NCBI GenBank assembly: GCA_029233925.1 | Contig: JARGOX010000006.1 | Coordinates: 1 to 64,000 of the forward strand | Origin: Rhizobiaceae bacterium | GTDB lineage: Bacteria; Pseudomonadota; Alphaproteobacteria; Rhizobiales; Rhizobiaceae | DNA: 64,000 nucleotides | Direction: 5' to 3' | In this document: positions 25,338 through 45,823 of the stretch, piece after piece | Layout: each line of letters opens with the position of its first letter | How positions within the stretch are numbered: position 1 is the first letter of the stretch | Program-made: the position numbers and the translations under genes | The notes under the pieces: model-generated | Told to the model about the DNA's origin: nothing | Seen by the model: the letters and a program-made list of their open reading frames with translations, nothing else | The model's database searches: none

Positions 25338-26240
25338 TTACTGCAGCTCTATAGAGCGCATGGCCAAGGCAATTTCAGAGCGTTCGCTTGCTGAAAGCGG
25401 CAAAACCGGATCACGCGGAAATCCGGCAGGCAGTCCCTTGATTTCCAGCGCCGCCTTGAACGAAGATGGCCAGGTGCCCGTTCCCATCAACAACTCATAT
25501 ATTTTGGTGAGTTTCATATGTGTACGTATGTACTCGTCATCTGGAGCGCCGCTTGCCAGTTGAACAATCTTGCGAGCGGTGCCATCCAGAAGCTCCGGTC
25601 CCGTTGCAATGAAGCCTTTTGCCCCCAGCGCCATCGCCGGCAGGATATAGTGGCATGGCCCCACCATTATGGACATGCGATTCGCAAAGCGTTCCAGCAA
25701 ATGCGTGTGATGGAAAAAATCCCTGTGGCTTTCCTTTATGCCGATAACATTTGAAACGCCCATAATGGCCTCAATATCGTCGAGGCTCAAAGAATACCCG
25801 ACCCGTCGCGGCGAATTGTAGATGAGCAAGGGCAGGCCGACACGGTCATGAACTTCGCTGAACCGCCTCAGTATCTCATCGCGGGAACCGCGCAGCACAT
25901 AGGTGGGCGGCATCATCAGCAAAGCATCTGCACCATTGTTCTTCGCTGCAAGCGCATAATCGATGCTGGATGACAAGGTTGGTGCGGAACATCCGGCAAC
26001 CACAGGCAGATCGGCATTCATGCTCGCGCGCGCCTTTTCGACCAGCACCCCGCGCTCAGACGCGTCAAGCGCCCAGCTTTCGCCATTGTCACCAGCAACG
26101 CAAATCCCATCAGCACCCGAACTCACCAGCCACTTGACCATCACCGCAAAGTCGTCGATCAGAATATTCCCGTCAGCGTCAAAGGGCGTTGCAACCGCGG
26201 GGAAAAATCCATGGATTTGTTGTTTTGTAATCTTGTTCAT
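25338..26240 (-). CDS. DapA/NanA-family aldolase or lyase
   Basis: A 300-residue class I aldolase-fold protein of the dihydrodipicolinate synthase superfamily. The Schiff-base lysine is in IGIKES and the tyrosine in LLIYNSPRRVGY. The usual GTTGE motif reads GDNGE, so the carboxylate-binding loop differs from true DapA. The ATG overlaps the upstream stop (TGATG). Its neighbours argue against lysine synthesis and for a catabolic 2-keto acid lyase or a deaminase such as the one that acts on pyrroline-4-hydroxy-2-carboxylate. The precise reaction is open. Confidence 0.85.
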   Translation of the reverse strand: MNKITKQQIHGFFPAVATPFDADGNILIDDFAVMVKWLVSSGADGICVAGDNGESWALDASERGVLVEKARASMNADLPVVAGCSAPTLSSSIDYALAAKNNGADALLMMPPTYVLRGSRDEILRRFSEVHDRVGLPLLIYNSPRRVGYSLSLDDIEAIMGVSNVIGIKESHRDFFHHTHLLERFANRMSIMVGPCHYILPAMALGAKGFIATGPELLDGTARKIVQLASGAPDDEYIRTHMKLTKIYELLMGTGTWPSSFKAALEIKGLPAGFPRDPVLPLSASERSEIALAMRSIELQ

Positions 26241-33656: not shown

Positions 33657-33681
33657 GGAACTTTTGGGCACGGGAAGCGTT
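33657..33681 (+). promoter_or_regulatory. EcfG-type promoter for the DUF3008-mgtC genes
   Basis: GGAAC (33657-33661), 16 bases, then CGTT (33678-33681) match the alphaproteobacterial general-stress sigma factor consensus exactly. The -10 ends 36 bases before the DUF3008 start. Confidence 0.75.
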
Positions 33682-33717
33682 TTAAAGTCATGTGCAGCGA
33701 AACGACGGAGAAAAACG

Positions 33718-33906
33718 ATGCCTGCCAAATCGAAAGCCCAACAAATGGCCGCCGGCGCAGCCTTGGCTGCCGTGCGCGGTGAGACCGATGAAAGCGAACT
33801 GAAGGGTGCCTCCAGAGAGATGTTCGATTCCATGACGGAAGATGAACTGGAGGAACTTGCCTCAACCAGCCGCAAAGGAAAGCCCCGGCATGTCAAGGAT
33901 TCCTGA
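33718..33906 (+). CDS. DUF3008 family small protein
   Basis: A 62-residue, highly charged soluble protein of the DUF3008 family. It has the basic MPAKSKAQQ start, an ALAAVRGE segment, a LKGASREMFDSMTEDELEELAST core and a KGKPRHV tail. Its function is unknown; such proteins are often induced by stress. GGAG lies seven bases before the ATG, and an EcfG-type promoter lies directly upstream. The mgtC gene follows after 61 bases and is probably cotranscribed. Confidence 0.85.
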   Translation: MPAKSKAQQMAAGAALAAVRGETDESELKGASREMFDSMTEDELEELASTSRKGKPRHVKDS

Positions 33907-33967
33907 GCACCCGACTGACCTTTCAAACGCATTTGACACCCTCTTTGGTGCCCGGGCGGGGATTTGA

Positions 33968-34453
33968 ATGGAAGCCCTTTTCAACGACATCACACATACG
34001 CCGTGGTTGACCTTGCCGGTGATCACGGGCCGCATGCTTATGGCGCTTTTTTTCGGCGCACTCATCGGGTTTGAACGGGAGAAAAGGAACCGGCCCGCCG
34101 GATTGCGCACACACATTCTGGTGTGTCTGGCATCCTCATCTGTTGCCATCCTGACGATCGAGATTTCCAACATGCAGCAGTTCGCCGCTGAAAATGTGCG
34201 GATGGACCCGGTGCGCCTTGTCGAGGCGGTGACAGGCGGCGTGGCATTTCTGGCAGCGGGCTTCATCGTCTTTGCAAACGGGAAAGTGCACGGCCTGACG
34301 ACAGGCGCCGGCATGTGGCTCGCTGGAGCGGTCGGACTTGCATGCGGGCTTGGCCAGTTGCAGATCGCGGCGATCGCGACCTTGCTTGCCATCATCGTAT
34401 TGTGGCTGCTTGGCCGCATGGAAACGCGTCTGGATACCAGCCAGGGCGAATAG
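33968..34453 (+). CDS. MgtC/SapB family membrane protein
   Basis: A 161-residue inner-membrane protein with about four hydrophobic segments. It has the MgtC signature GRMLMALFFGALIGFEREKRNRPAGLRTH near residues 20-48 and the later VEAVTGGVAFLAAGFI. MgtC proteins help bacteria survive low magnesium and acid, in part by affecting the F-type ATP synthase. It lies between the DUF3008 gene and a small membrane-protein gene. A truncated and frameshifted relative of its C-terminal half is at 45125. Confidence 0.9.
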   Translation: MEALFNDITHTPWLTLPVITGRMLMALFFGALIGFEREKRNRPAGLRTHILVCLASSSVAILTIEISNMQQFAAENVRMDPVRLVEAVTGGVAFLAAGFIVFANGKVHGLTTGAGMWLAGAVGLACGLGQLQIAAIATLLAIIVLWLLGRMETRLDTSQGE

Positions 34454-34551
34454 TGCATTTAGAGTCAGCACCGTTAGGGGGAACGGGCAAACCGCAAATC
34501 ATGCGGAAGATAAAGGGACGTTACAGAGCTATTGGAAAAACGGAGAAAATC

Positions 34552-34824
34552 ATGAAAATGCCAAGGAACAACCGCAAAGAATCTGTAAAGCTCAATACCA
34601 CGGAAGCGCGCCAGGCGCGGCCTGCTTTCACGTTTCGGGTTTTGTTGATTGCCATGGGGCTGATCGTCATCACATTCGCCATTATTTATGTGATAGCCGA
34701 GACAGGCGACCCTGAAGAAACCGCATATGAGCGGCGTGAAAAAGGGGATATTACGAACATCCAGCCCTCGCCAGAGGAGTCGCCTGCGCGCAGTGAGACG
34801 TCTATCCAAAGCGATCGACCCTGA
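34552..34824 (+). CDS. Small single-pass membrane protein, paralogue A
   Basis: A 90-residue protein of unknown function. A basic N-terminal tail of about 28 residues is followed by one membrane helix (about 29-49) and an acidic C-terminal tail. It aligns almost without gaps to the product of the gene at 45572: ARQ at 19-21, FRVL at 28-31, AE at 49-50, GDI near 65 and IQ at 70-71 occur in both. GGAG lies six bases before the ATG. It follows mgtC and probably shares its stress promoter. Confidence 0.75.
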   Translation: MKMPRNNRKESVKLNTTEARQARPAFTFRVLLIAMGLIVITFAIIYVIAETGDPEETAYERREKGDITNIQPSPEESPARSETSIQSDRP

Positions 34825-34831
34825 TGTGATC

Positions 34832-35311
34832 CTATTCAGAGTTCCGGTCGATATCTTTGTCATCGGGGCCAAGAATCCGGCTCGAAAGCCATTGATAAAT
34901 GCCCAGGGCCACCAATCCGAACATAGCGGCCACGAACAGAACAGCCGGATAGATCGCCAGTGAGATATCTTCCCGTGTCGCCTTGAAGACCATCACCAGC
35001 GCCTCCAGGCTGGCGGCGATGACAATAATGGTCACGAACTTGGTAATCGACCGCCGTGATTCGGTTGATGAGCGCAATTCGCGATTGCGCAGAATTTCCT
35101 CCTCGGCGATGAACTTTGCAGTCTCGATTACAGCAAAACCGATGACCAGCAGGCTCACGCCACTCAGTGCTCCACTGACGAAAGAGCCTGAGAAAAAACC
35201 AACCGAAACATCCCATATCGCGATCACCAAGAATGCAAAGGCCAAAAGCATCAGCGCGATGGTTGCAACGAAAAAATATGCGCCTGCCAGCCTAGAATAG
35301 AGCTTTTCCAT
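34832..35311 (-). CDS. Four-helix membrane protein of unknown function
   Basis: A 159-residue protein with four clear hydrophobic helices and charged loops, including AEEEILRNRELRSSTESRRS between helices two and three. The size and layout recall PsiE-like phosphate-starvation proteins, but I cannot confirm that family. AGAAGG lies six bases before the chosen ATG. The gene converges on the small membrane-protein gene with an 7-base gap. An EcfG-like promoter (GGAAC-N16-TGTT) lies 37 bases upstream, so it is probably stress-induced too. Confidence 0.75.
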   Translation of the reverse strand: MEKLYSRLAGAYFFVATIALMLLAFAFLVIAIWDVSVGFFSGSFVSGALSGVSLLVIGFAVIETAKFIAEEEILRNRELRSSTESRRSITKFVTIIVIAASLEALVMVFKATREDISLAIYPAVLFVAAMFGLVALGIYQWLSSRILGPDDKDIDRNSE

Positions 35312-35348
35312 GTTGGGCCTTCTTTTGATATTGCTACATGGAACGGAA

Positions 35349-35373
35349 AACACCTGACGCGCTGAATTGTTCC
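35349..35373 (-). promoter_or_regulatory. EcfG-like promoter for the four-helix protein gene
   Basis: On the minus strand GGAAC (35373-35369), 16 bases and TGTT (35352-35349) match the EcfG consensus with one mismatch. The element ends 37 bases before the gene start. The rest of the 35312-35772 gap shows only the hairpin at 35720 and no gene. Confidence 0.55.
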
Positions 35374-35719
35374 AGAGGCGCGGAGAACGTGTTCCCGCCT
35401 GGAGGCGTTCCGACAGTCTCCACTCTCAAAACAGGGCGCTTTGGCGGGCCCCGATTTCACCGATTTTACGCTCATTGTATCCCGCCCTTTTTGCGTCGCT
35501 GCAGCAACGATCAGCGCTGCAGGCCGCACACGCGCAGGTCGTGCAAAGGGCTCGGGCCAACAACGACGCCCTCCTCGGCAGCCCCAGTTTAAGAAATTAC
35601 GTCGCTTCACCAGATCGCAGCGACTGTTTCGGCACGTATCATGGTTGATGTGGTTCTGGCCGTCAGTCCCCAGTTCGGGAGCCTTAGAGCATGCCTGCCA
35701 TCTACGACAATGCAAGACA

Positions 35720-35750
35720 AGCGGGCCGCACAATCCACGTGCAGCCCGCT
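35720..35750 (-). terminator. Terminator-like hairpin after gcd
   Basis: AGCGGGC-C-GCAC, a 7-base loop and GTGC-A-GCCCGCT form an 11-pair stem with one mismatch, 22 bases beyond the gcd stop. Only a weak T-rich stretch follows on the minus strand. Confidence 0.5.
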
Positions 35751-35772
35751 CAAAGCTCCCCGTGTGCAAACG

Positions 35773-38355
35773 CTATTCTTCGGGCAGTGCCCACGCGATC
35801 ACATAATCGCCGATCGGCGTTTCCATGAAGTGGTGCCCCCCCGGAGCCAGCGCGATAAACTGGCGACCACCCACTTCGTAACTGATCGGCGTCGTCTGCC
35901 CCCCGGCAGGCAGGACATCGCTCCAAACCGTTTCGCCAGTTTCAATATCAATGGCCCGGATGAGGTTATCTGTCGCCGCGGCGATGAAGATCAACCCGCC
36001 AGCGGTAATCAACGGGCCGCCGTTGTTTGGTGTGCCGATCTTGATGGGCAGCATGGACGGAATTCCGAAGGGCCCATTGGCGCGCGCCTGCCCGAGCGGT
36101 TGATCCCAAAGCGTTTCGCCGGTTTCGAGATCGATCGCCCGAATGCCGCCATAGGGTGGCTCTTTGCACATCAGCCCTGTCCATTCTTCCCGCCAGCCGG
36201 CATTGACGGAAATGGCATAGGGCGAACCCAACTGCGGACCCGCCTCGCCACCGGGACCCTCCGGCGAAAAGATAGGACGCACGCCATCTGCATCAGCCTC
36301 TGCACGGGGAACCAGCCGGTTGTAATTGGGCATGTCGTTATAGTTGGCGATCAGGATACCCCGTTCCACGTCAATGGCCATGGAACCCCAGTCCTGACCA
36401 CCATTGTATCCGGGGTACTGAATCCAGTGGCCATCCGACGTTGGCGGCGTGTAGATGCCCGCGTAATTTGCTCTGCGGAACTGGATACGGCACCATAACT
36501 GATCAAGGGGGGTCATGCCCCACATGTCGGCCGAATTGAGGTCTTGCTTTGCAAGGCTGTGATAGGCGGAAAACGGCTGGGTGGGAGAAAGATAATCCGG
36601 CTCCACACCCATGCCCGCAGGCACTGAACGTTCCTCAACCGGAAACAGGGATTCGCCGGTCTGGCGGTTGAGAACGTAAATCTCGCCCTGTTTGGAGGAA
36701 AGGACGATAGCCGGCACGGTTTCACCGTTCAGCGGGAAGTCGATCAAGGTTGGTTGAGAGCCAAGATCGTAGTCCCAGACGTCATTGTGGACGGTCTGGA
36801 AATGCCAGACTTCTTCCCCGGTCGCAACATCAAGCGCGACAAGAGACGTTGCATACTCATTTTCCGCAGCACTGCGGTTGCTGCCGTAATAGTCAACAGC
36901 CGAATTGCCGAGCGGCAGGTAGACCTGACCAAGCGCCTCGTCGCCCGCTGCGGTTGTCCACATGTTGGGCGTTCCGCGGGTGTAGACCTCGCCGTCCTCC
37001 GGTTTTCCCCTGAGATCGGGGTTGCCCAGATCCCACGCCCATACCAGTTCGCCGGTCACTGCGTCATAACCACGGATAACGCCGGAGGGCGAATCTTCCG
37101 CCTGTCCGTCCTTCACCTGCGCGCCCATCACGGCGACGCCGCGCACAATTGTCGGGGCTGACGTTATCGAATACCAACCGGGCACTGTCTCCCCCAGCCC
37201 GTCTTCGAGGTAAATCTCGCCGTTCTGGCCAAAATCCTGACAGGGTTGCCCGGTACGGGCATCCACCGCCAGAAGGCGCGCGTCCAGTGTTCCCCAGAGA
37301 ATGCGAGCTGAACAAAGGGACTGCTGGCCATCAGCTGCGGGGTTTTCAAAATAGGCAACGCCCCGGCATGTGGCGCCATAGGGGATGGCATCCACCGGCA
37401 CCTGCGGGTCATAGCGCCATTCTTCCCGCCCGGTTGCTGCATCAATTGCGATGGCGATGCCCATGGCCGAACACGTATAAAGATCATCACCGACCTTGAG
37501 CGGTGTGTTTTCCGGCGAATATTTGCCCTCGGCTTCAGCACTCGGCATGTCGCCAGTGCGGTATTGCCAGACCATTTTGAGCGTGCCGATATTGTCGCGA
37601 TTAATCTGGTCATTTGGCGAATAGCGCGCCGCATGGATTGAACCGCCATAGGCAGGCCAGTCACTGCCGGCTTCGCGCATGGCAAGGGCGGGGCGCCCCG
37701 GTTCCTGCATCAGGTCGTCCTGAACCGGAAATTGAGTTGACGTCGTCGGCGTCGGTTCCGGCGCATGGCGATCCCCCTTAACAGATTGCGCTTCATCCAC
37801 AGGGGCCAACGGAGCCGGCGCTGCACGATTGGCGGAGTTTTCGGGTGCAGCGACCGCCGGTGCCGTATTCTGGGCCGAAACCTGTGTCGTTTGCGAAACG
37901 GCGTAGGCCCCTGCCAGGCCGAACACCACGACAAGCACCAACGACACCAGCCCCGAACGCCCGGACGGCAGCCGGATAATGCCATTGCGCCGCCGAAGCA
38001 CGGGGATTGTCGCCAGCACCAGCACGAGTATGACAGTCGGCGCGACAAGCCGGGGCACCTGCGCCCAGCCATTCAGCCCGACCTCCCACAATGCCCAGAT
38101 CAGCGTGAATAGGTAGGTTGCCGCGTAGACAGAAACCGCCGTTATCGAACCGGCCAGTATCAGCGCCGCTGTTGCCAACAAGCCGACCCCCGCAAGGGCA
38201 TAATACCAGGATCCTCCGAGAATGATCAGCCAGATGCCGCCAGCAAGGATGGGCACACCAAACACCGTAATCACGCCTGCAAGCAACATGGTCAGCCAGT
38301 AGCCAATGCCGCGATGGTCACGAGTTGGGGTGGGTTTCATATCAATGGTTGTCAT
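35773..38355 (-). CDS. gcd: Membrane-bound PQQ-dependent glucose dehydrogenase
   Basis: An 860-residue quinoprotein. The first 145 residues hold about five membrane helices that bind ubiquinone. The rest is an eight-bladed periplasmic propeller with the quinoprotein motifs DWPAYGGS, AIDAATGREEWRYDP and GLIFIAAATDNLIRAID. It oxidises glucose or another aldose to the lactone in the periplasm and feeds electrons to ubiquinone. AAGGA lies eight bases before the ATG. It diverges from the oxidase operon, and each side has its own EcfG-type promoter. No PQQ synthesis genes are in the window. Confidence 0.93.
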   Translation of the reverse strand: MTTIDMKPTPTRDHRGIGYWLTMLLAGVITVFGVPILAGGIWLIILGGSWYYALAGVGLLATAALILAGSITAVSVYAATYLFTLIWALWEVGLNGWAQVPRLVAPTVILVLVLATIPVLRRRNGIIRLPSGRSGLVSLVLVVVFGLAGAYAVSQTTQVSAQNTAPAVAAPENSANRAAPAPLAPVDEAQSVKGDRHAPEPTPTTSTQFPVQDDLMQEPGRPALAMREAGSDWPAYGGSIHAARYSPNDQINRDNIGTLKMVWQYRTGDMPSAEAEGKYSPENTPLKVGDDLYTCSAMGIAIAIDAATGREEWRYDPQVPVDAIPYGATCRGVAYFENPAADGQQSLCSARILWGTLDARLLAVDARTGQPCQDFGQNGEIYLEDGLGETVPGWYSITSAPTIVRGVAVMGAQVKDGQAEDSPSGVIRGYDAVTGELVWAWDLGNPDLRGKPEDGEVYTRGTPNMWTTAAGDEALGQVYLPLGNSAVDYYGSNRSAAENEYATSLVALDVATGEEVWHFQTVHNDVWDYDLGSQPTLIDFPLNGETVPAIVLSSKQGEIYVLNRQTGESLFPVEERSVPAGMGVEPDYLSPTQPFSAYHSLAKQDLNSADMWGMTPLDQLWCRIQFRRANYAGIYTPPTSDGHWIQYPGYNGGQDWGSMAIDVERGILIANYNDMPNYNRLVPRAEADADGVRPIFSPEGPGGEAGPQLGSPYAISVNAGWREEWTGLMCKEPPYGGIRAIDLETGETLWDQPLGQARANGPFGIPSMLPIKIGTPNNGGPLITAGGLIFIAAATDNLIRAIDIETGETVWSDVLPAGGQTTPISYEVGGRQFIALAPGGHHFMETPIGDYVIAWALPEE

Positions 38356-38385
38356 GATCAGGATCCTTCATTGCTTCTCTTTTTC

Positions 38386-38410
38386 AACGATGACAATCCA
38401 GGACAGTTCC
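38386..38410 (-). promoter_or_regulatory. EcfG-type promoter for gcd
   Basis: On the minus strand GGAAC (38410-38406), 16 bases and CGTT (38389-38386) are an exact match to the EcfG consensus. The -10 ends 30 bases before the gcd start. Confidence 0.72.
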
Positions 38411-38430
38411 AGCCGACCCCAATTTTTTTT

Positions 38431-38455
38431 GGAACCAATCCCAATTCAACGTGTT
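38431..38455 (+). promoter_or_regulatory. EcfG-like promoter for the caa3 oxidase operon
   Basis: GGAAC (38431-38435), 16 bases and TGTT (38452-38455) match the consensus with one mismatch. The element ends 34 bases before the ctaC start and lies back to back with the gcd promoter. Confidence 0.6.
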
Positions 38456-38489
38456 TGAAAATTGACTGACCGGCGCTTTGGGGGAACGT

Positions 38490-39491
38490 GTGCACGATAC
38501 AAAACCCGAAATCACCATATCCTTCGGGCCATGCCTGCCGATCGCCGCCATGGGCTTGCTACTATCAGGCTGCGTCGGTCGCCAATCGGCTCTGGCGCCT
38601 GCCGGGCATGATGCCGAGCAGATTTCCAATCTCTTCTGGGTCATGACTGCGGGTGCCTCGATTATCTGGGCGCTGGTTCTCGGCACGGCTCTCGCTGCAA
38701 CTTTGGGTCTGTTCAAAAATCCGACACGGCTCACTCCAAACATCCTGATCGTCGGCGGTGGCGTTGTGTTTCCAACCGTCATATTGGGCATTTTGCTGAT
38801 CTTTGGGCTGCGCTTGCTGCCAAACTGGCAATCTGAACCCGACCGGCTGCAGATTCACGTGCACGGTGAGCAATGGTGGTGGCGGGTTGTCTACAGGGCG
38901 CCGGACCAAATTGAACCCGTTATCTCCGCCAACGAGATTCACTTGCCGGCCGGACAGGCGGTCGAGTTCGTTCTGACCAGCGCTGATGTCATACATTCGT
39001 TCTGGATACCTTCGATTGGCGGCAAGCTGGATATGATCCCCGGCCGCACCACGCGCCTGCTTCTGGAGGCAACAAGGCCAGGCGTTTATCGCGGCGTTTG
39101 CGCGGAATATTGCGGCACATCTCACGCAAAAATGGCCTTTGCCGTCGTCGTGCATGAGCCGAAAGATTTCAACGCATGGCTGGAAGACCGAACCTCCGAC
39201 CCAAACATAGGGACCGATGACCCGGGAAGAAAAATCTTCCTGTCATCCGGCTGTGCGGCCTGTCACCGGATCAGGGGTTTGACGGAGATCGGATCGGTGG
39301 GACCGGATCTCAGCCACATCGGCAGTCGCAGAACGATCGGCGCCGGGATCGCTGAAAACACCCCAAAGAATCTCGCACGCTGGATTACCGATCCCGCACA
39401 CATGAAACCTGCCGTCCAGATGCCCGCCTATCGAGCCTTGCCGCCTGAGGATATAGCGGCAATTGCGCGGTTTTTGTCAAACCTGAATTAA
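38490..39491 (+). CDS. ctaC: Cytochrome c oxidase subunit II fused to cytochrome c (caa3 type)
   Basis: A 333-residue lipoprotein subunit. The lipobox LLSGC places the lipidated cysteine at residue 28, followed by two membrane helices. The CuA domain has its histidine in VIHSFWIP and cysteines 204 and 208 in CAEYCGTSH. A C-terminal cytochrome c domain has heme motif CAACH (255-259). The fusion defines a caa3-type oxidase that accepts electrons without separate soluble cytochrome. GTG at 38490 with GGGGGA upstream was chosen; a TTG 12 bases earlier is possible. It is the first gene of the oxidase operon. Confidence 0.93.
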   Translation: MHDTKPEITISFGPCLPIAAMGLLLSGCVGRQSALAPAGHDAEQISNLFWVMTAGASIIWALVLGTALAATLGLFKNPTRLTPNILIVGGGVVFPTVILGILLIFGLRLLPNWQSEPDRLQIHVHGEQWWWRVVYRAPDQIEPVISANEIHLPAGQAVEFVLTSADVIHSFWIPSIGGKLDMIPGRTTRLLLEATRPGVYRGVCAEYCGTSHAKMAFAVVVHEPKDFNAWLEDRTSDPNIGTDDPGRKIFLSSGCAACHRIRGLTEIGSVGPDLSHIGSRRTIGAGIAENTPKNLARWITDPAHMKPAVQMPAYRALPPEDIAAIARFLSNLN

Positions 39492-39501
39492 GGCTTCAGC
39501 G

Positions 39502-42036
39502 ATGAAAAACGAGATGGCCCATCGACACGGCCCCGACCAGGACGATCCACGGATCCGTGCTGCGCAAGAAGCACGCCTTTCAAAAGCCTGGGAGACGCAT
39601 GGTGGTTGGCGTTACTGGTCGTCCGTCAATAACAGCGAAGTCGGCATCTGGTACATTGTCACGGCGTTCGGTTTCATGCTGTTTGCCGGCGTGCTCGGAC
39701 TGTTGATTCGTACACAGCTCGCTGTGCCTGATAATGAGTTTCTATCCGCCGAGACCTACAATCAGGTGTTCACGCTTCACGGAACGGCGATGATGTTCCT
39801 GTTTGCCGTGCCGATATTCGAGGCCGTCGCCATTCTCATACTACCCGCCTTGCTGGGCACACGCGACCTTCCCTTCCCGCGCCTTTCCGCGTTTGGTTAC
39901 TGGTGTTTCCTGATTGGCGGTATTTTCGTCTGCGGGTCCATTTTCTTCAACGCAGCACCGTCGGGCGGCTGGTTCATGTATCCCCCATTGACCACCAAAC
40001 AGGGGGGGATCGGCGCTGACATCTGGCTTCTGGGGTTATCATTTATCGAGGTCGCTTCCATTGCCGCTGCCGTGGAACTCATCGTCGGGGTTCTCAAATG
40101 TCGCCCGCCGGGCATGCATATCAACCTGACACCCCTTTACGGATGGTATGTGCTGATTGTCGGTGGCATGATCCTGTTTGCCTTCCCGCCGCTGATTGCC
40201 GGTGATTTTCTTTTCGAGATGGAACGGGCGTTCGACTGGCCGTTTTTCGACCCCGAACGCGGCGGTGATCCGTTGCTCTGGCAGCATCTGTTCTGGATTT
40301 TCGGACATCCGGAAGTCTACATCATCTTCCTGCCGTCCATCGCGCTGCTCGCCATGATCGTGCCGACTTTCGCCGGACGCCCGATTGCCGGTTACTCGTG
40401 GATTGTGCTTTCAGCGCTGGGAACCGGGTTCCTGAGTTTCGGCCTCTGGGTCCATCACATGTTCGCAACCGGCCTGCCCTCGATTTCACTGGGTTTCTTC
40501 TCAGCAGCCTCGGAAGCCGTCGCCATCCCTACGGGCATTCAGATCTTCGTATTCATTGCCACTTTGATGCTCGGCAAGGTGGTGCGCTCCGTGCCCATGC
40601 TGTTTGCTTTGGGGGCCTTGGCCATCTTTGTTGCCGGCGGTCTGACCGGGGTGATGGTTGCCGTTGCGCCCTTCGATTTTCAGGCGCATGACAGTTATTT
40701 CATCGTCGCCCACCTGCATTATACACTCTTCGGAGGCATGTTGTTTCCGCTGGTGGCAGGCATTTATTACTATTACCCCCTCATGACCGGCTACATGATG
40801 TCACGGCGCCTTGGCGTATGGGCCTTCTGGCTGATGTTCGCCGGCTTCAACATCTGCTTCCTGCCCATGCATCTGACGGGCATGCTCGGCATGCCGCGGC
40901 GCGTTTTTACCTACCCGGAAGATCTGGGCTGGAACACATTGAACCTCGTTTCGACAATCGGCGCGTTTGTTTTTGCAGCCGGTTTTCTGGTCTTTGTCTT
41001 CGACGCACTGCGACCAAAAAGCCATGCAGAAAAGGCATCGCGGAATCCCTGGAAAGCCGGAACCGTGGAATGGGCGCTCGAACTGCCGCCACGGTCGTGG
41101 GGCGCCCGCACAATTCCGCATATCGAAAGCCGATATCCGGCCTGGGATGATCACAGTTTCATGCGTAGGTATGACGAGGGTCGTTTCTATCTGCCCGATG
41201 CCGAAGAAGGACGACGCGAAGCTCTGGTCACCTCGGTGCTGGATGCGCAGCCTGTACAATGCATGCGCGTTGCCGGACCGACCTGGATAACGCTTGCGAC
41301 GGCCCTGTGCCTGGCCGGCGTCTTTATTTTCGCCACCTATCATTGGTGGACCGCAACCTTCATTTCCGGCCTGTTGACGCTGTGCTCTATTGTTTACTGG
41401 CTTTGGACGGGCACCGGCGAACATCCCGAAAAGGATGAAAAGGCCATCGGGATGGGGATGACGGCGCAGCTTTACATTTCGGGACCTCGCGCCACAGGCT
41501 GGTGGGCAATGTTCATTACCATGACGGGCGACCTGACGGCCTTTCTGGGCCTGATCTTCGGGTATTTTTTCTTCTGGACAGTGCACGATCAATTCCCGCC
41601 GCCGGACATTGACGGTCCGGGGTGGACATGGCCACTGGCGGCCGGTCTGTTGTTATGCGGATCCTGGGTGCTGACCTATGGCGCGCGCCTGTGGAACGCG
41701 CGCGGCGATATGTTGCTTTTTCGCATGGCTCTGCTTGCAGCGGTTTTGCTGGCGCTGGCCGGCATCGGCGCACTTGTGATGGGTCCGCTGGCCCACAGGA
41801 TGGATCCGACTGCGCATGCCTATCCGGCCATTGTCTGGGCGCTGGTTCTATGGACAGGCGCGCATGCCGCCGCAGGCGTGATCATGCAGCTTTATTGTCT
41901 CGCGGCCAGCTTTGCTGGCCGGCTGACACCTAAATACGATACCGACATCTGGAATGTTGCACTTTACTGGCACTTCATGGCCTTCACCGTCTTCGCCACA
42001 ACACTTGTCATAGGAGGCTTTCCGCTCGTCTCATGA
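39502..42036 (+). CDS. ctaD: Cytochrome c oxidase subunit I fused to subunit III
   Basis: An 844-residue fusion. Residues 1 to about 560 are subunit I, with the CuB/heme region FGHPEVYIIFLPS, HHMFATGLP and the heme ligands in VAHLHYTLFGG. After a soluble linker, residues from about 640 form a subunit III-like helix bundle (GWWAMFITMTGDLTAFLGL). It is the catalytic oxygen-reducing, proton-pumping core of the caa3 oxidase encoded with ctaC. Fused I/III subunits are known in some alphaproteobacteria. It overlaps the next gene by four bases. Confidence 0.93.
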   Translation: MKNEMAHRHGPDQDDPRIRAAQEARLSKAWETHGGWRYWSSVNNSEVGIWYIVTAFGFMLFAGVLGLLIRTQLAVPDNEFLSAETYNQVFTLHGTAMMFLFAVPIFEAVAILILPALLGTRDLPFPRLSAFGYWCFLIGGIFVCGSIFFNAAPSGGWFMYPPLTTKQGGIGADIWLLGLSFIEVASIAAAVELIVGVLKCRPPGMHINLTPLYGWYVLIVGGMILFAFPPLIAGDFLFEMERAFDWPFFDPERGGDPLLWQHLFWIFGHPEVYIIFLPSIALLAMIVPTFAGRPIAGYSWIVLSALGTGFLSFGLWVHHMFATGLPSISLGFFSAASEAVAIPTGIQIFVFIATLMLGKVVRSVPMLFALGALAIFVAGGLTGVMVAVAPFDFQAHDSYFIVAHLHYTLFGGMLFPLVAGIYYYYPLMTGYMMSRRLGVWAFWLMFAGFNICFLPMHLTGMLGMPRRVFTYPEDLGWNTLNLVSTIGAFVFAAGFLVFVFDALRPKSHAEKASRNPWKAGTVEWALELPPRSWGARTIPHIESRYPAWDDHSFMRRYDEGRFYLPDAEEGRREALVTSVLDAQPVQCMRVAGPTWITLATALCLAGVFIFATYHWWTATFISGLLTLCSIVYWLWTGTGEHPEKDEKAIGMGMTAQLYISGPRATGWWAMFITMTGDLTAFLGLIFGYFFFWTVHDQFPPPDIDGPGWTWPLAAGLLLCGSWVLTYGARLWNARGDMLLFRMALLAAVLLALAGIGALVMGPLAHRMDPTAHAYPAIVWALVLWTGAHAAAGVIMQLYCLAASFAGRLTPKYDTDIWNVALYWHFMAFTVFATTLVIGGFPLVS

Positions 42037-42437
42037 CCAACCATCTGCAGAAGGAAGTCAAACGCGAAACAGGAGAAGGCACCGACCTTTGGAGGGTCAT
42101 TCTTGCCCCGACCATCTGGGCTGTGCACTTTCTTGTCTGTTACGTGGGAGCGGCAATCTATTGCGAAAAGGCAGGGCGAATGGCTGATCTGCTACCGGTC
42201 CGCCTGATCGTCGGTACGGCCACATTCATTGCACTTGCAGGCCTGGCAGCGGTCTTTATTTCGCTATGGAAGGTTCGTGGCCTGTCTTCGGTCAACGATG
42301 ATTACAACTACGCGGGCAATACACCTGAAGAGCGGCATCGCTTTCTGTCTCACGTTGCCCTGATGCTCTGCGTTCTTTCTGGTGTGGCGATATTGTATGC
42401 GGCATTTCCCGCTCTCGTGCTGGAGGTTTGCAGATGA
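42033..42437 (+). CDS. Oxidase-operon membrane protein of unknown function
   Basis: A 134-residue protein with three predicted membrane helices (roughly 25-48, 58-80 and 107-130). It contains the segment ILAPTIWAVHFLVCYVGAAIYCEK and a soluble loop SSVNDDYNYAGNTPEERHRF. Its ATG overlaps ctaD and its stop overlaps the ctaG-like start, so it belongs to the oxidase unit. It occupies the place of a small subunit IV or an assembly protein, but I do not recognise the family. Confidence 0.75.
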   Translation: MTNHLQKEVKRETGEGTDLWRVILAPTIWAVHFLVCYVGAAIYCEKAGRMADLLPVRLIVGTATFIALAGLAAVFISLWKVRGLSSVNDDYNYAGNTPEERHRFLSHVALMLCVLSGVAILYAAFPALVLEVCR

Positions 42438-43066
42438 GGCACAGGATGGCCGTGATTGCCGGGATCTTCGTGCTGTTGCTTGTATGGGCCGGCCCCCTGC
42501 CCCTTTTGGCGCGGGGAAGTTTTGCTGCCCATATGTTCATGCATATGGGGGTCGTGGCCGTTGCCGCTCCCTTGCTGGCCTATGGTGTGTTGCCGCTTTT
42601 CACGCGATGGAGATGGGCCACAATGCTGTTTGCCTTTCCGATTGCCGCAAGCCTGCTTGATCTGGTGGTCATCTGGGGCTGGCATACCCCCCTGGCGCAC
42701 GAGGCGGCGCGAACCAGCTCCTTGACACGAACCGTCGAGCAATTTTCGTTTCTGGCGGTGGGACTTTTTCTGTGGCTGACCGCCTTGGCGGGCAGTTCGG
42801 GTCCCTCGCGCTTTCTTGCAGGTGCGGCGGCCTTGCTGTTCACCTCCATGCACATGACCATGCTCGGCGTGCTGATCGGGCTGATGCAAAATCCCATCTG
42901 CGCCGTACCACCGGCACGCCCACCGTTTGGCCTGACGATCATTGTCGACCAGCAGCTTGGCGGCCTGTTGATGCTGGGATTGGGTGGCTTGATTTATCTT
43001 GCTGCAGGACTTGTTCTCGTCGGAAAGGCGCTCCAGGAACCGGCAACAAAACAGGAGAACGCCTGA
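42434..43066 (+). CDS. ctaG: CtaG-like (Caa3_CtaG) cytochrome oxidase assembly protein
   Basis: A 210-residue membrane protein with about six helices, of the Caa3_CtaG family involved in assembling caa3 oxidases and not related to the CuB chaperone Cox11 of the same name. Conserved features are AAHMFMHMGVVAVAAPLLA, WGWHTPLAHEAAR and SMHMTMLGVLIG, with potential metal-binding His and Met residues. The ATGA overlap with the preceding gene fixes the start, and its stop overlaps the next start (TGATG). Confidence 0.87.
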   Translation: MRHRMAVIAGIFVLLLVWAGPLPLLARGSFAAHMFMHMGVVAVAAPLLAYGVLPLFTRWRWATMLFAFPIAASLLDLVVIWGWHTPLAHEAARTSSLTRTVEQFSFLAVGLFLWLTALAGSSGPSRFLAGAAALLFTSMHMTMLGVLIGLMQNPICAVPPARPPFGLTIIVDQQLGGLLMLGLGGLIYLAAGLVLVGKALQEPATKQENA

Positions 43067-44169
43067 TGAAAATGTCCGTGCGCCATATCGTCATTGGTCT
43101 GGGAGTCGCCGCTATGTGTGGCGCTGGCGTTTTCTGGCTGGGTCTCGTCAATGTCGGAGCAAGCACAGGACATTGGGCATTGACGGATTGGCTTCTGCAT
43201 ACCGCCATGCGCCGGTCGGTCCAGTTCCGCGCCGACACGCTTCCTCCAGAGGATTTTGCCAGTGAAGCCATGATCCGCCGTGGTGCGGCGCATTTTGAAA
43301 CCGGATGCGCCCCCTGCCACGGCAGCCCCGGTGCACCGCGCGGTGCCGTTGTGCGCGCCATGACACCTGAGCCGCCCGATCTCCTCGACCAGGTCGATCA
43401 ATGGACGGCGGCAGATCTGTTCTGGATCGTCAAACATGGCGTCAAATTTACCGGCATGCCGGCATGGCCGGCACCCGGTCGCGACGACGAGGTCTGGTCG
43501 ATGGTGGCATTTCTGAAATTCATGCCCTCTCTCGACGCGCAGGGGTACCACGGTCTCGCCTATGGCGCCGAAAAAATACCCAACGGGCGGCAACGTGTTC
43601 TTTCGGTTACGGCCAACCCTGCACTCGCCGACTGTGTCCGCTGCCACGGCCTTGATGGGCGCGGCGATGGCAATGGTGCGTTTCCCCGTCTCGACATACA
43701 GGACGAAGCCTATCTGCATGATGCGTTGCAGGCCTATGCAGGTGGCCACCGTTTCAGTGGCATCATGCAGGAAGCGACCGCAGGTCTGGATGGAGAAACG
43801 CTTGCCATACTTGCTGCATACTTTGCACAGCAAAGCGCCGGCAAGCCCTTTGCAACGGCACAGGAACCGTTGGAAGCAGAACGACTGCAACGCGGCAAAA
43901 TCATCGCTATGCGGGGTTTGCCGGACAACAATGTTGCTTCCTGTGCAGGCTGTCACGATCGGACCGGAACACAGAGCCGTTCGCAATTCCCGCGGCTTTC
44001 AGGCCAGTACCGCACCTATATCGAAACACAGTTGCGACTGTTTTCTACAAATACAAAACGAGGTGGCGGGCCTTTCGCAAATATCATGCGGCAGTCCAGC
44101 CACGCGCTTGAAGATGCAGACATTGAGGCTGTGGCCGCCTGGTATGCGATGCAAACACCCAACCCGTAA
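43066..44169 (+). CDS. Triheme cytochrome c
   Basis: A 367-residue membrane-anchored c-type cytochrome. An N-terminal hydrophobic segment serves as signal or anchor, followed by three heme motifs: CAPCH, CVRCH and CAGCH. The three domains resemble the small cytochromes that carry electrons to oxidases or accept them from dehydrogenases. It overlaps the ctaG-like stop by one base and ends the oxidase operon. It may link a periplasmic dehydrogenase or the bc1 complex to the caa3 oxidase. Confidence 0.9.
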   Translation: MKMSVRHIVIGLGVAAMCGAGVFWLGLVNVGASTGHWALTDWLLHTAMRRSVQFRADTLPPEDFASEAMIRRGAAHFETGCAPCHGSPGAPRGAVVRAMTPEPPDLLDQVDQWTAADLFWIVKHGVKFTGMPAWPAPGRDDEVWSMVAFLKFMPSLDAQGYHGLAYGAEKIPNGRQRVLSVTANPALADCVRCHGLDGRGDGNGAFPRLDIQDEAYLHDALQAYAGGHRFSGIMQEATAGLDGETLAILAAYFAQQSAGKPFATAQEPLEAERLQRGKIIAMRGLPDNNVASCAGCHDRTGTQSRSQFPRLSGQYRTYIETQLRLFSTNTKRGGGPFANIMRQSSHALEDADIEAVAAWYAMQTPNP

Positions 44170-44178
44170 TCTGTGCCG

Positions 44179-44203
44179 GGAACAATTTTGATCCTTTTCC
44201 GTT
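44179..44203 (+). promoter_or_regulatory. EcfG-type promoter for the SDR gene
   Basis: GGAAC (44179-44183), 16 bases and CGTT (44200-44203) match the consensus exactly. The -10 ends 23 bases before the SDR start and the whole element fits in the 57-base gap after the cytochrome gene. Confidence 0.75.
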
Positions 44204-44226
44204 GTTTGAAGGAAAGGAGACATCAG

Positions 44227-45075
44227 ATGAACAACACCACAAGCGACGCAAGGCAGAAGGATGATGGCGCCACCGAACGCAATATGCTGCCCAAACCCGA
44301 TTGCATGCCACGCTATGCCGGCAGCAAGCGTCTGGCAAACAAAACGGCAATTGTCACCGGAGGCGATTCGGGCATCGGACGCGCGGTATCGATTTTATTC
44401 GCACGGGAAGGCGCAAATGTCGCCATTGTGTATCAGCATTCCGATGAAGATGCGCGCGACACAGTTGGGATGATCGAAGAGGAGGGACAAAAGGCGATAT
44501 GCCTCAAGGGAGATATCGGCAGCAAAGCCTTTTGCACGGACATAGTGGCGCAGACAAAACAGGCCCTCGGAGCCCCTGACATTGTCGTCAACAACGCCGG
44601 TGAGCAACATCCCAAGGCGGATGTCGACGCCATTGACGAGGATCAGTTGCGCCAGACGTTCCAGACCAATATCTTCGGCCAGTTCTTTCTCACCCAGGCC
44701 GTATTGCCGGACCTGAAAGAAGGCTCTTCAATCATCTGCACCACATCGGTGACGGCCTATCGGGGACAAGACCTGCTGATTGACTACGCCTCCTCAAAAG
44801 GCGCAATCTTGTCCTTCATCCGTGCTCTTTCCCACAAGCTCGCTCCCAAAGGCATCCGTGTAAATGGTGTGGCGCCGGGGCCAATATGGACCCCGCTTAT
44901 CCCTTCGACTTTTCCGAAAGACAAAGTGGACTCTTTCGGCAAGAGCACACCCCTGGGCCGTGCCGGACAACCCAACGAGGTTGCACCCGCCTTTCTGTTC
45001 CTGGCCTGTGCGGATTCAAGCTATATCACCGGACAGGTCATTCATCCGAACGGAGGAGAGCCCGTCTCCAGCTAA
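44227..45075 (+). CDS. YghA/general-stress-type short-chain dehydrogenase
   Basis: A 282-residue SDR of the YghA and Bacillus general-stress-protein group. A polar N-terminal extension of about 40 residues with MLPKPDCMPRYAGS is typical. It is followed by VTGGDSGIGRAVS (cofactor), VVNNAGEQHP, TTSVTAYRG and the catalytic DYASSKG. The end PNGGEPVSS is also typical. AAGGAG precedes the ATG and an exact EcfG promoter lies 23 bases upstream. The substrate of this group is uncertain. Confidence 0.92.
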   Translation: MNNTTSDARQKDDGATERNMLPKPDCMPRYAGSKRLANKTAIVTGGDSGIGRAVSILFAREGANVAIVYQHSDEDARDTVGMIEEEGQKAICLKGDIGSKAFCTDIVAQTKQALGAPDIVVNNAGEQHPKADVDAIDEDQLRQTFQTNIFGQFFLTQAVLPDLKEGSSIICTTSVTAYRGQDLLIDYASSKGAILSFIRALSHKLAPKGIRVNGVAPGPIWTPLIPSTFPKDKVDSFGKSTPLGRAGQPNEVAPAFLFLACADSSYITGQVIHPNGGEPVSS

Positions 45076-45124
45076 GACACCTACGGCTTTCTTGGGTGCG
45101 AGGGGGGGGCGTGATCAGGGAAGG

Positions 45125-45327
45125 GTCGCCTTTCTGGCTGCCGGTTTCATCGTTTTGCCAATGGCAAGGTGCATAGAATAACGACGGGTGCAGGCATGTG
45201 GCTGGCGGGCGCGATTGGACTGGCGGGCGCCCTTGGTCCTCTGCTGATTGCAGCCATTGCCACTTTCCTCGCAATTATGGTCCTTTGTATACTCGGACGG
45301 ATGCAGGCGCACATGGATCATGAATAA
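45125..45327 (+). pseudogene. Truncated, frameshifted mgtC-like remnant
   Basis: Translation gives VAFLAAGFIV, then after one missing base near 45152 continues ANGKVHRITTGAGMWLAGAIGLA and on to GRMQAHMDHE with a stop at 45325. This matches the last third of the MgtC protein encoded at 33968 (VAFLAAGFIVFANGKVHGL onward). The first two-thirds of the gene are missing. It lies before a second copy of the small membrane-protein gene, as the intact mgtC does. Confidence 0.85.
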
Positions 45328-45523
45328 TCCGTACAGACCTCAGCCGATCCGAAAATATCTGAGGAAGGCATCCCTGTTCCAAGCAATTTCTGATCCGCAG
45401 CTTTCGCCTGGGTTCAACAATGCATGCTGCAAGAATTGCCTTGAAAGCATCCGGCAGTTTCATGCCCTTGAGCCAGCGTCAGATGCATATCCGTTTTGCG
45501 CATCATTCTTTCAAAAGTAAATT
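45328..45523. other. Short intergenic stretch, nothing recognised
   Basis: No gene is seen between the mgtC remnant and the promoter at 45524. A weak CCTCAG/CTGAGG pairing lies just after the remnant. Confidence 0.4.
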
Positions 45524-45548
45524 GGAACCTGAAGCGGGTTCGAGCGTT
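45524..45548 (+). promoter_or_regulatory. EcfG-type promoter for small membrane protein B
   Basis: GGAAC (45524-45528), 16 bases and CGTT (45545-45548) match the consensus exactly and end 23 bases before the start codon. Confidence 0.75.
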
Positions 45549-45571
45549 TGTTAAAAAAGCGGAGATTTTCA

Positions 45572-45823
45572 ATGAACAAACATACAAATGAATTCGAAAA
45601 GCCGGAAATGCTCACGAAAAATCAGGCGCGTCAGGGACAGACATCCTATGTATTTCGTGTGCTGATTGTCTCGATCGTACTGGTTTTCATACTTTTTCTC
45701 AGCGCTTACTTGCTGGCAGAATCAGATGACAATGACAGCGAGACTGCATCCCTTTTCACCGGTGATATCGTTGCAGAAATTCAACTGCCGACGTTGGCGC
45801 CAAATGCGCAGTTTTCGAACTGA
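45572..45823 (+). CDS. Small single-pass membrane protein, paralogue B
   Basis: An 83-residue paralogue of the product of the gene at 34552. A polar N-terminal tail with NQARQ is followed by a membrane helix (about 29-49) and an acidic tail, DDNDSETASLFTGDI. GGAG precedes the ATG at a good distance. It has its own exact EcfG promoter, whereas copy A lies behind mgtC. The function is unknown. Shared, ungapped features with copy A argue that both are real genes. Confidence 0.75.
   Translation: MNKHTNEFEKPEMLTKNQARQGQTSYVFRVLIVSIVLVFILFLSAYLLAESDDNDSETASLFTGDIVAEIQLPTLAPNAQFSN

Follow-up and report, generated by a model that had tools for sequence, protein, structure and literature searches.

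A 12-kb Rhizobiaceae island with EcfG-type promoter elements before every transcription unit, including a caa3 oxidase operon and a quinoprotein dehydrogenase gene

Could the general stress response of an alphaproteobacterium act on its respiration? This question is raised by a 12-kb island (positions 33,657 to 45,823) in a 64,000-nucleotide stretch of DNA, here called the window, from a Rhizobiaceae bacterium (assembly GCA_029233925.1, contig JARGOX010000006.1, positions 1 to 64,000). The island comprises six transcription units, among them the operon of a caa3-type terminal oxidase and the gcd gene for a membrane-bound pyrroloquinoline quinone (PQQ)-dependent dehydrogenase, and each unit has a GGAAC-N16-(C/T)GTT element upstream of its first gene. 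This motif equals the consensus GGAAC-N16-CGTT of the sigma factor EcfG in Rhizobium etli (PMC3892343) and Sphingopyxis (PMC7083833) and resembles the mapped RpoE2 promoters of Sinorhizobium meliloti (PMC6180224); here and below, statements on cited articles refer to the available parts of their text. A preliminary description had read the locus as a compact EcfG stress regulon and suggested that, under stress, an alternative respiratory chain is turned on by this sigma factor. Judged from the sequence, we consider it likely that the island is under EcfG control.

An EcfG-type element before each unit

A pattern scan recovered the six elements at the positions given in the preliminary description, all with an N16 spacer, four ending in CGTT and two in TGTT. 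The end of the element lies 23–37 nt from the start codon in all six units, which are DUF3008-mgtC-small membrane protein 1, a gene for a 159-aa protein, gcd, the caa3 operon, a short-chain dehydrogenase (SDR) gene, and small membrane protein 2. Co-transcription within each unit is suggested by strand and spacing, and the promoter at the head of each unit would also have to serve its later genes, namely mgtC, small membrane protein 1, and the oxidase genes downstream of ctaC. The elements, and their state in G002, another genome of the same genus, are as follows:

33657..33681, plus strand: EcfG-type element GGAAC-N16-CGTT, 36 nt 5' of the DUF3008 ATG at 33718; same sequence in G002
35349..35373, minus strand: EcfG-type element GGAAC-N16-TGTT, 37 nt 5' of the ATG of the 159-aa protein at 35311; same sequence in G002
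35386..35411, minus strand: extra match GGAAC-N17-CGTT, directly upstream of the preceding element; present in G002; role uncertain
38386..38410, minus strand: EcfG-type element GGAAC-N16-CGTT, 30 nt 5' of the gcd ATG at 38355; one spacer change in G002
38431..38455, plus strand: EcfG-type element GGAAC-N16-TGTT, 34 nt 5' of the ctaC GTG at 38490; same sequence in G002
44179..44203, plus strand: EcfG-type element GGAAC-N16-CGTT, 23 nt 5' of the SDR ATG at 44227; one spacer change in G002
45524..45548, plus strand: EcfG-type element GGAAC-N16-CGTT, 23 nt 5' of the ATG of small membrane protein 2 at 45572; beyond the contig end in G002

The gcd and ctaC elements are arranged back to back. No match to GGAAC-N16/17-[CT]GTT was found in front of the flanking genes (NnrS on the left; Lrp-type and putA on the right), and a simple scan for sigma70-type sites detected none before the six units and a single match in 13 kb, which lies within gcd.

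The elements are more frequent than expected by chance. The window holds nine matches to GGAAC-N16/17-YGTT compared to 1.85 expected from shuffles; beyond the six island elements, these are the N17 match at 35386-35411 and one match each at 25459 and 59064, all three on the minus strand. Within the island, the pattern GGAAC..[CT]GTT gave six matches at N16, compared to a mean of 0.51 and a maximum of 3 at 37 control spacings (2–40 minus 16 and 17). A genome scan, proposed in the preliminary description as a check on the enrichment of the cluster, was run with a fixed pattern and spacing controls and supports that the cluster exceeds chance: the background of strict matches (GGAAC-Nk-CGTT) is ~45 per spacing in 6.1 Mb (606 and 663 matches, each over 14 spacings), and four strict N16 matches are seen in the 12.3-kb island compared to 0.09 expected (Poisson P for four or more, 2.7e-6, uncorrected for the choice of region). 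Genome-wide, strict N16 and N17 matches together number 116, a modest excess. When clusters were ranked with 100 of these 116 matches, 56 of them N16, the island with its four strict elements was the second-densest strict cluster among the matches listed, after the phyR-nepR-ecfG locus.

PhyR, NepR, and EcfG form a partner switch in which phosphorylated PhyR binds NepR and EcfG is freed. The three genes are present together in this genome (contig C14, 150–152 kb). PhyR scores 375 bits with PRK09191 (cut-off 240), NepR at C14:151367 matches PF18557 (E 3.1e-14), and EcfG, an extracytoplasmic function (ECF) factor, exceeds the cut-offs of both PRK12516 and PRK12547 and contains the PhyR_sigma2 domain according to Pfam. 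Two strict N16-CGTT elements, divergent and back to back, lie between phyR and nepR, and the same layout recurs in the island between gcd and ctaC. The surrounding region (C14:147-166 kb) has nine strict elements, six of them in its best 12.3 kb, and is the densest among the matches listed. We note that this region is a second candidate stress island. Elsewhere in the genome, two strict elements lie close together (C1:115749 and 116455), one of them ~34 nt upstream of a DUF892 gene (PF05974); a DUF892 gene also adjoins an EcfG-like gene in Paracoccus amoyensis. In the working model for the island, stress would lead to phosphorylation of PhyR, which would bind NepR and free EcfG, and EcfG-RNA polymerase would start six transcripts from the six elements.

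Conservation of the elements in relatives

The families examined for conservation of the element were those of ctaC, the SDR, the small membrane proteins, gcd, DUF3008, and the 159-aa protein. For the oxidase, the best 80 of 594 relatives were used (by record title, 67 alphaproteobacterial and 13 others), and for the other families sampled genomes of the class, with the island's own copy excluded. In each case, elements at N16/17 were compared with 35 other pairs of neighbouring spacings. Upstream of ctaC, an element is present in 17 of the 67 alphaproteobacterial loci (control mean 1.09, maximum 6) and in none of the 13 non-alphaproteobacterial loci. The 17 loci span 11 genera or groups, i.e. 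Devosia, Aliirhizobium, Ensifer, Sinorhizobium, Mesorhizobium, Rhizobium, Cereibacter, Paracoccus, Primorskyibacter, a Paracoccaceae metagenome-assembled genome, and Sphingomonas. SDR relatives with 12 family labels have the element in 14/28 cases (control mean 0.34, maximum 2), DUF3008 relatives in 4/14 (control mean 0.26, maximum 2), and gcd relatives in 6/10 (control mean 0.54, maximum 3), the latter including all four closest relatives (64–67% identical).

For the small membrane proteins, a search with two rows gave three weak relatives, and a five-row profile gave matches in 42 of 385 genomes, the own genome included, many of which are weak and perhaps not all true relatives. Among the 29 loci tested, the element is present in 10/26, or in 13/29 if the three loci used to build the profile (3/3) are counted (control mean 0.29, maximum 2). 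Finally, a control set of 498 further genes from the 67 alphaproteobacterial oxidase loci has 21 elements at N16 and two at N17, where the other spacings average 1.83 each; thus, the neighbours of the oxidase are enriched as well. It looks as if stress genes gather near the oxidase.

Because the motif and its spacing, its position before every unit, the presence of a PhyR-NepR-EcfG locus, and spacing-specific conservation for five gene families all point in the same direction, EcfG control is well supported, and so is the reading of the island in the preliminary description as a compact EcfG stress regulon, as far as sequence comparisons can carry it.

A putative respiratory module and its neighbours

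The two units that flank the back-to-back elements encode the components of the suggested respiratory chain:

35773..38355, minus strand: gcd, membrane-bound PQQ-dependent dehydrogenase of the glucose/quinate/shikimate family, 860 aa; TIGR03074 917 bits (cut-off 833) and PF01011
38490..39491, plus strand: ctaC, caa3 subunit II with CuA and haem c domains; Pfam COX2 and Cytochrom_C, TIGR02866 over cut-off, CuA motif and one CxxCH
39502..42036, plus strand: ctaD, oxidase subunit I, 844 aa; TIGR02891 over cut-off
42033..42437, plus strand: 134-aa protein of the oxidase operon; no family match, a relative in 79/80 oxidase loci
42428..43066, plus strand: CtaG-type oxidase assembly factor; PF09678 E 2.2e-22
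43072..44169, plus strand: c-type cytochrome encoded at the end of the oxidase operon, three CxxCH motifs; PF13442 and PF00034

By its predicted proteins, with a COX1-family subunit I, a subunit II with CuA and haem c, and CtaG, the oxidase belongs to the caa3 type. Subunit I aligns with 2yev_A over residues 36–534, and its C-terminal 285 residues match subunit III chains weakly (best E 0.005) and no Pfam family. A second subunit I, 39% identical, is encoded on contig C34 with no element in the 5 kb examined around it; the predicted island oxidase is, therefore, a second terminal oxidase of the genome. The 844-aa protein has matches with E <=1e-100 in 31/61 genomes, the own genome included and ordinary subunit I counted in. 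As for function, Gcd, provided that it carries PQQ, would oxidize a periplasmic sugar and hand the electrons to ubiquinone, from where, judging by the protein families, they would reach caa3 via bc1 and cytochrome c. Together with gcd, caa3 would help a starved or stressed cell to draw energy efficiently from scarce substrate.

We then considered where gcd and the other island genes lie in relatives. Among the 80 oxidase loci (in 14 of them, a flank is shorter than 9 kb), the oxidase has a long gcd match nearby in four (L018, L034, L059, L095), an mgtC relative (31–53% identical) in six, an SDR at least 44% identical in six, and DUF3008 in one. In Primorskyibacter flagellatus (L059), both mgtC and ctaC are preceded by an element, and another lies ~57 nt upstream of the aligned gcd start. 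In Sulfitobacter sp. EhC04 (L095), an element lies ~45 nt before gcd, which is followed on the same strand by a further gene and then ctaC with gaps of ~61 and ~7 nt; because of this order and the short gaps, the gcd element could serve the oxidase too. Devosia submarina (L018) has an element before ctaC and none for gcd on the gcd strand. In a further genome (G040, L133), a gcd relative adjoins an operon with a ctaD 48% identical to that of the island, and a strict element lies just before the first gene of this operon. A candidate gcd neighbour in Paracoccus onubensis (L079) was dropped because the match spans only 60 residues.

Island families also occur beside sigma genes. In Paracoccus amoyensis (L090), a 12-kb stretch contains the oxidase, DUF892, an SDR, DUF3008, and an EcfG-like sigma gene that has an element of its own. 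In G100 (L262), a PQQ dehydrogenase, DUF3008, an SDR, and an EcfG-like gene lie within ~9 kb, and all but the dehydrogenase are preceded by an element. Because the sigma proteins of both loci, with 42% identity each to this genome's EcfG, score under the closest NCBIfam cut-offs, we limit their label to EcfG-like. G380 (L261) has a small-protein relative beside phyR and an EcfG-like sigma gene, with elements before them. In G075 (L264), DUF3008 lies beside the oxidase operon, and the closest same-strand element is ~400 nt upstream.

The remaining genes of the island are the following:

33718..33906, plus strand: DUF3008 protein, 62 aa; PF11450 E 1e-30
33968..34453, plus strand: MgtC-family membrane protein, 161 aa; PF02308 E 6.8e-34
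34552..34824, plus strand: small membrane protein 1 (90 aa) with a single hydrophobic stretch and an ARQ-centred core; no Pfam or NCBIfam match
34832..35311, minus strand: 159-aa hydrophobic protein of unassigned family, labelled four-helix in the preliminary description; no Pfam match
44227..45075, plus strand: SDR, 282 aa, labelled YghA-type in the preliminary description; PF13561 E 1.7e-54
~45118..45327, plus strand: relic of a second mgtC gene, read from the sequence; no element of its own, similar stretch in G002
45572..45823, plus strand: small membrane protein 2 (83 aa) with a single hydrophobic stretch; paralogue of small membrane protein 1 (34552)

The best NCBIfam model for the SDR is PRK06701, with a score under its cut-off, and the 159-aa protein has relatives in four of 375 other genomes of the class. 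The two small membrane proteins are 27% identical, and the mgtC relic before the second of them suggests that an mgtC-small protein pair was duplicated.

Alternative explanations and relation to known systems

A number of observations weigh against EcfG control or against its extension to a respiratory chain. Two of the six -10 boxes are TGTT, and a reversed-pattern control outnumbers the true pattern genome-wide (117+122, i.e. 239, compared to 43+73, i.e. 116); because its base order differs, this control was set aside and other spacings were used instead. The 17 ctaC loci are not independent, including three from Mesorhizobium and four from Sphingomonas, and the strict element is absent at 50 of the 67 alphaproteobacterial caa3 loci, so EcfG control of caa3 would not be universal. 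The six gcd matches come from four genomes, two of them of one genus, with 1330 bases tested, and relatives of the 159-aa protein have the element in one of four cases. The element ends at most 120 nt from the matched start in 10/14 SDR and 6/10 small-protein cases and further away in the others. The oxidase is present in one of seven other genomes of the genus (G002) and is, therefore, accessory. In G002, all five testable elements are kept, two with one spacer change, and the island proteins other than Gcd are 97–100% identical; at this identity, close-range conservation says little. The respiratory part is further weakened by the four of 80 loci with gcd near the oxidase and by a search for PqqC, which gave no match in the genome and likewise none in any of 14 controls. 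The gcd copy of G002 (L126, 7230–9740) matches in four pieces in different frames, 79–98% identical, reflecting either decay or an assembly error.

Against this background, we weighed three alternatives. That the six matches stem from chance or base composition would fit the finding that 32 of the 37 other strict N16 places (35 loci) lie inside an open frame of at least 150 codons on either strand, as expected of background; this criterion is crude because two of the six island elements also lie inside such frames. Moreover, eight of the 37 places have the start of a frame of at least 150 codons within 10–120 nt downstream and may be further real targets. The four strict elements seen against 0.09 expected, the lack of signal at other spacings, and the recurrence of the spacing-specific signal in relatives speak against chance, and after comparisons with shuffles and with other spacings genome-wide, in the island, and in relatives, we reject a chance origin as extremely improbable. 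A different ECF sigma factor with an overlapping consensus, such as an EcfG paralogue or a factor of the ECF26 type, could drive some or all of the elements. The RpoE2 regulon of S. meliloti shares 27 targets with RpoE6 (PMC6180224), and at least two EcfG-like genes occur in half of the alphaproteobacterial genomes that have been completed (PMC3892343); however, the same strict motif is present at phyR and nepR-ecfG of this genome, and EcfG-like genes neighbour island gene families in relatives, making this alternative unlikely.

The third alternative shares the regulatory part of the explanation that we prefer: the island is under EcfG, but with gcd and caa3 as separate stress genes that common regulation has brought together, and Gcd may depend on external PQQ for its activity. 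The few relatives with gcd near the oxidase, even allowing for the 14 short-flanked loci, the PqqC search with its silent controls, and the piecewise match of gcd in G002 agree with such separate roles, as does the RpoS-dependent caa3 oxidase of Pseudomonas aeruginosa, for which gcd is unmentioned in the available text (PMC5436846). On the other hand, loci that combine gcd and oxidase have elements, upstream of ctaC in L018 and L059, of gcd in L059 and L095, and of the operon start in L133. We regard separate roles as having close to an even chance of being correct. A working alternative respiratory chain of Gcd and caa3, as suggested by the protein families, is plausible, if somewhat less than an even bet. 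The claim of the preliminary description that the sigma factor switches on such a chain agrees with the second oxidase and the elements but goes beyond the data, given the PqqC result, the scarcity of gcd beside the oxidase, and the caa3 loci lacking the element.

Returning to EcfG control of the island, we tentatively propose that EcfG might directly drive a starvation respiratory module in Alphaproteobacteria, consisting of caa3 and, at times, a PQQ dehydrogenase, SDR, MgtC, DUF3008, and ARQ-type small proteins; that this module moves between genomes as a "stress island", sometimes with its own EcfG-like sigma gene; and that it is an independently reached counterpart of the RpoS-dependent caa3 of Pseudomonas. 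Many EcfG targets are of unassigned function, and if EcfG directly targets a terminal oxidase and a quinoprotein dehydrogenase across several orders, then the general stress response also alters respiration. Because the same kind of promoter lies before related genes in a sizeable share of the other alphaproteobacteria sampled, stress may change respiration there. The small membrane protein family and DUF3008 gain a regulatory context, and exact sites for measurement are provided.

EcfG regulons and their motif are already known, also from Sphingomonas (PMC6599016) and S. meliloti (PMC6180224, PMC3616915). In a literature search of titles and abstract starts, no paper stated EcfG control of caa3 or gcd, and the passages on these EcfG regulons list neither as a target; the words "cytochrome" and "oxidase" are absent from the main text of PMC3892343, PMC3616915, and PMC7083833, "oxidase" is absent from PMC6599016, and the available part of PMC2912261 has nothing relevant. 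Because supplementary tables lay outside the search and most subscription literature was not covered, this is weak evidence of novelty. We suggest that the kind of regulon is known while its reach into respiration may be new.

The oxidase resembles the Thermus-type caa3 (2yev), in which subunits I and III form one chain, in the haem c on subunit II and the long C-terminal part of subunit I, and differs in that this part is only weakly subunit III-like and in regulation and neighbours. The closest precedent is the caa3 oxidase of P. aeruginosa (coxBA-PA0107-coxC), which is expressed under starvation from a promoter of the stationary-phase sigma factor. That promoter is RpoS-dependent and the genes are induced under starvation, the mutant has low relative fitness under starvation, and the caa3 chain has the highest proton-gradient capacity among five oxidases (PMC5436846). 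The sigma factor there is RpoS rather than the ECF factor EcfG, and the promoter is different; EcfG dependence in the island is predicted from the DNA. With the EcfG/RpoE2/SigT regulons, the island shares GGAAC-N16/17-CGTT, its position near start codons, and the PhyR-NepR-EcfG locus, and the S. meliloti RpoE2 targets likewise include many of unassigned function and the short-chain dehydrogenase SMa0187 (PMC6180224). Compared to the known EcfG regulons, the island adds a terminal oxidase operon and a membrane-bound PQQ dehydrogenase as putative targets, with elements before six of six units in 12 kb.

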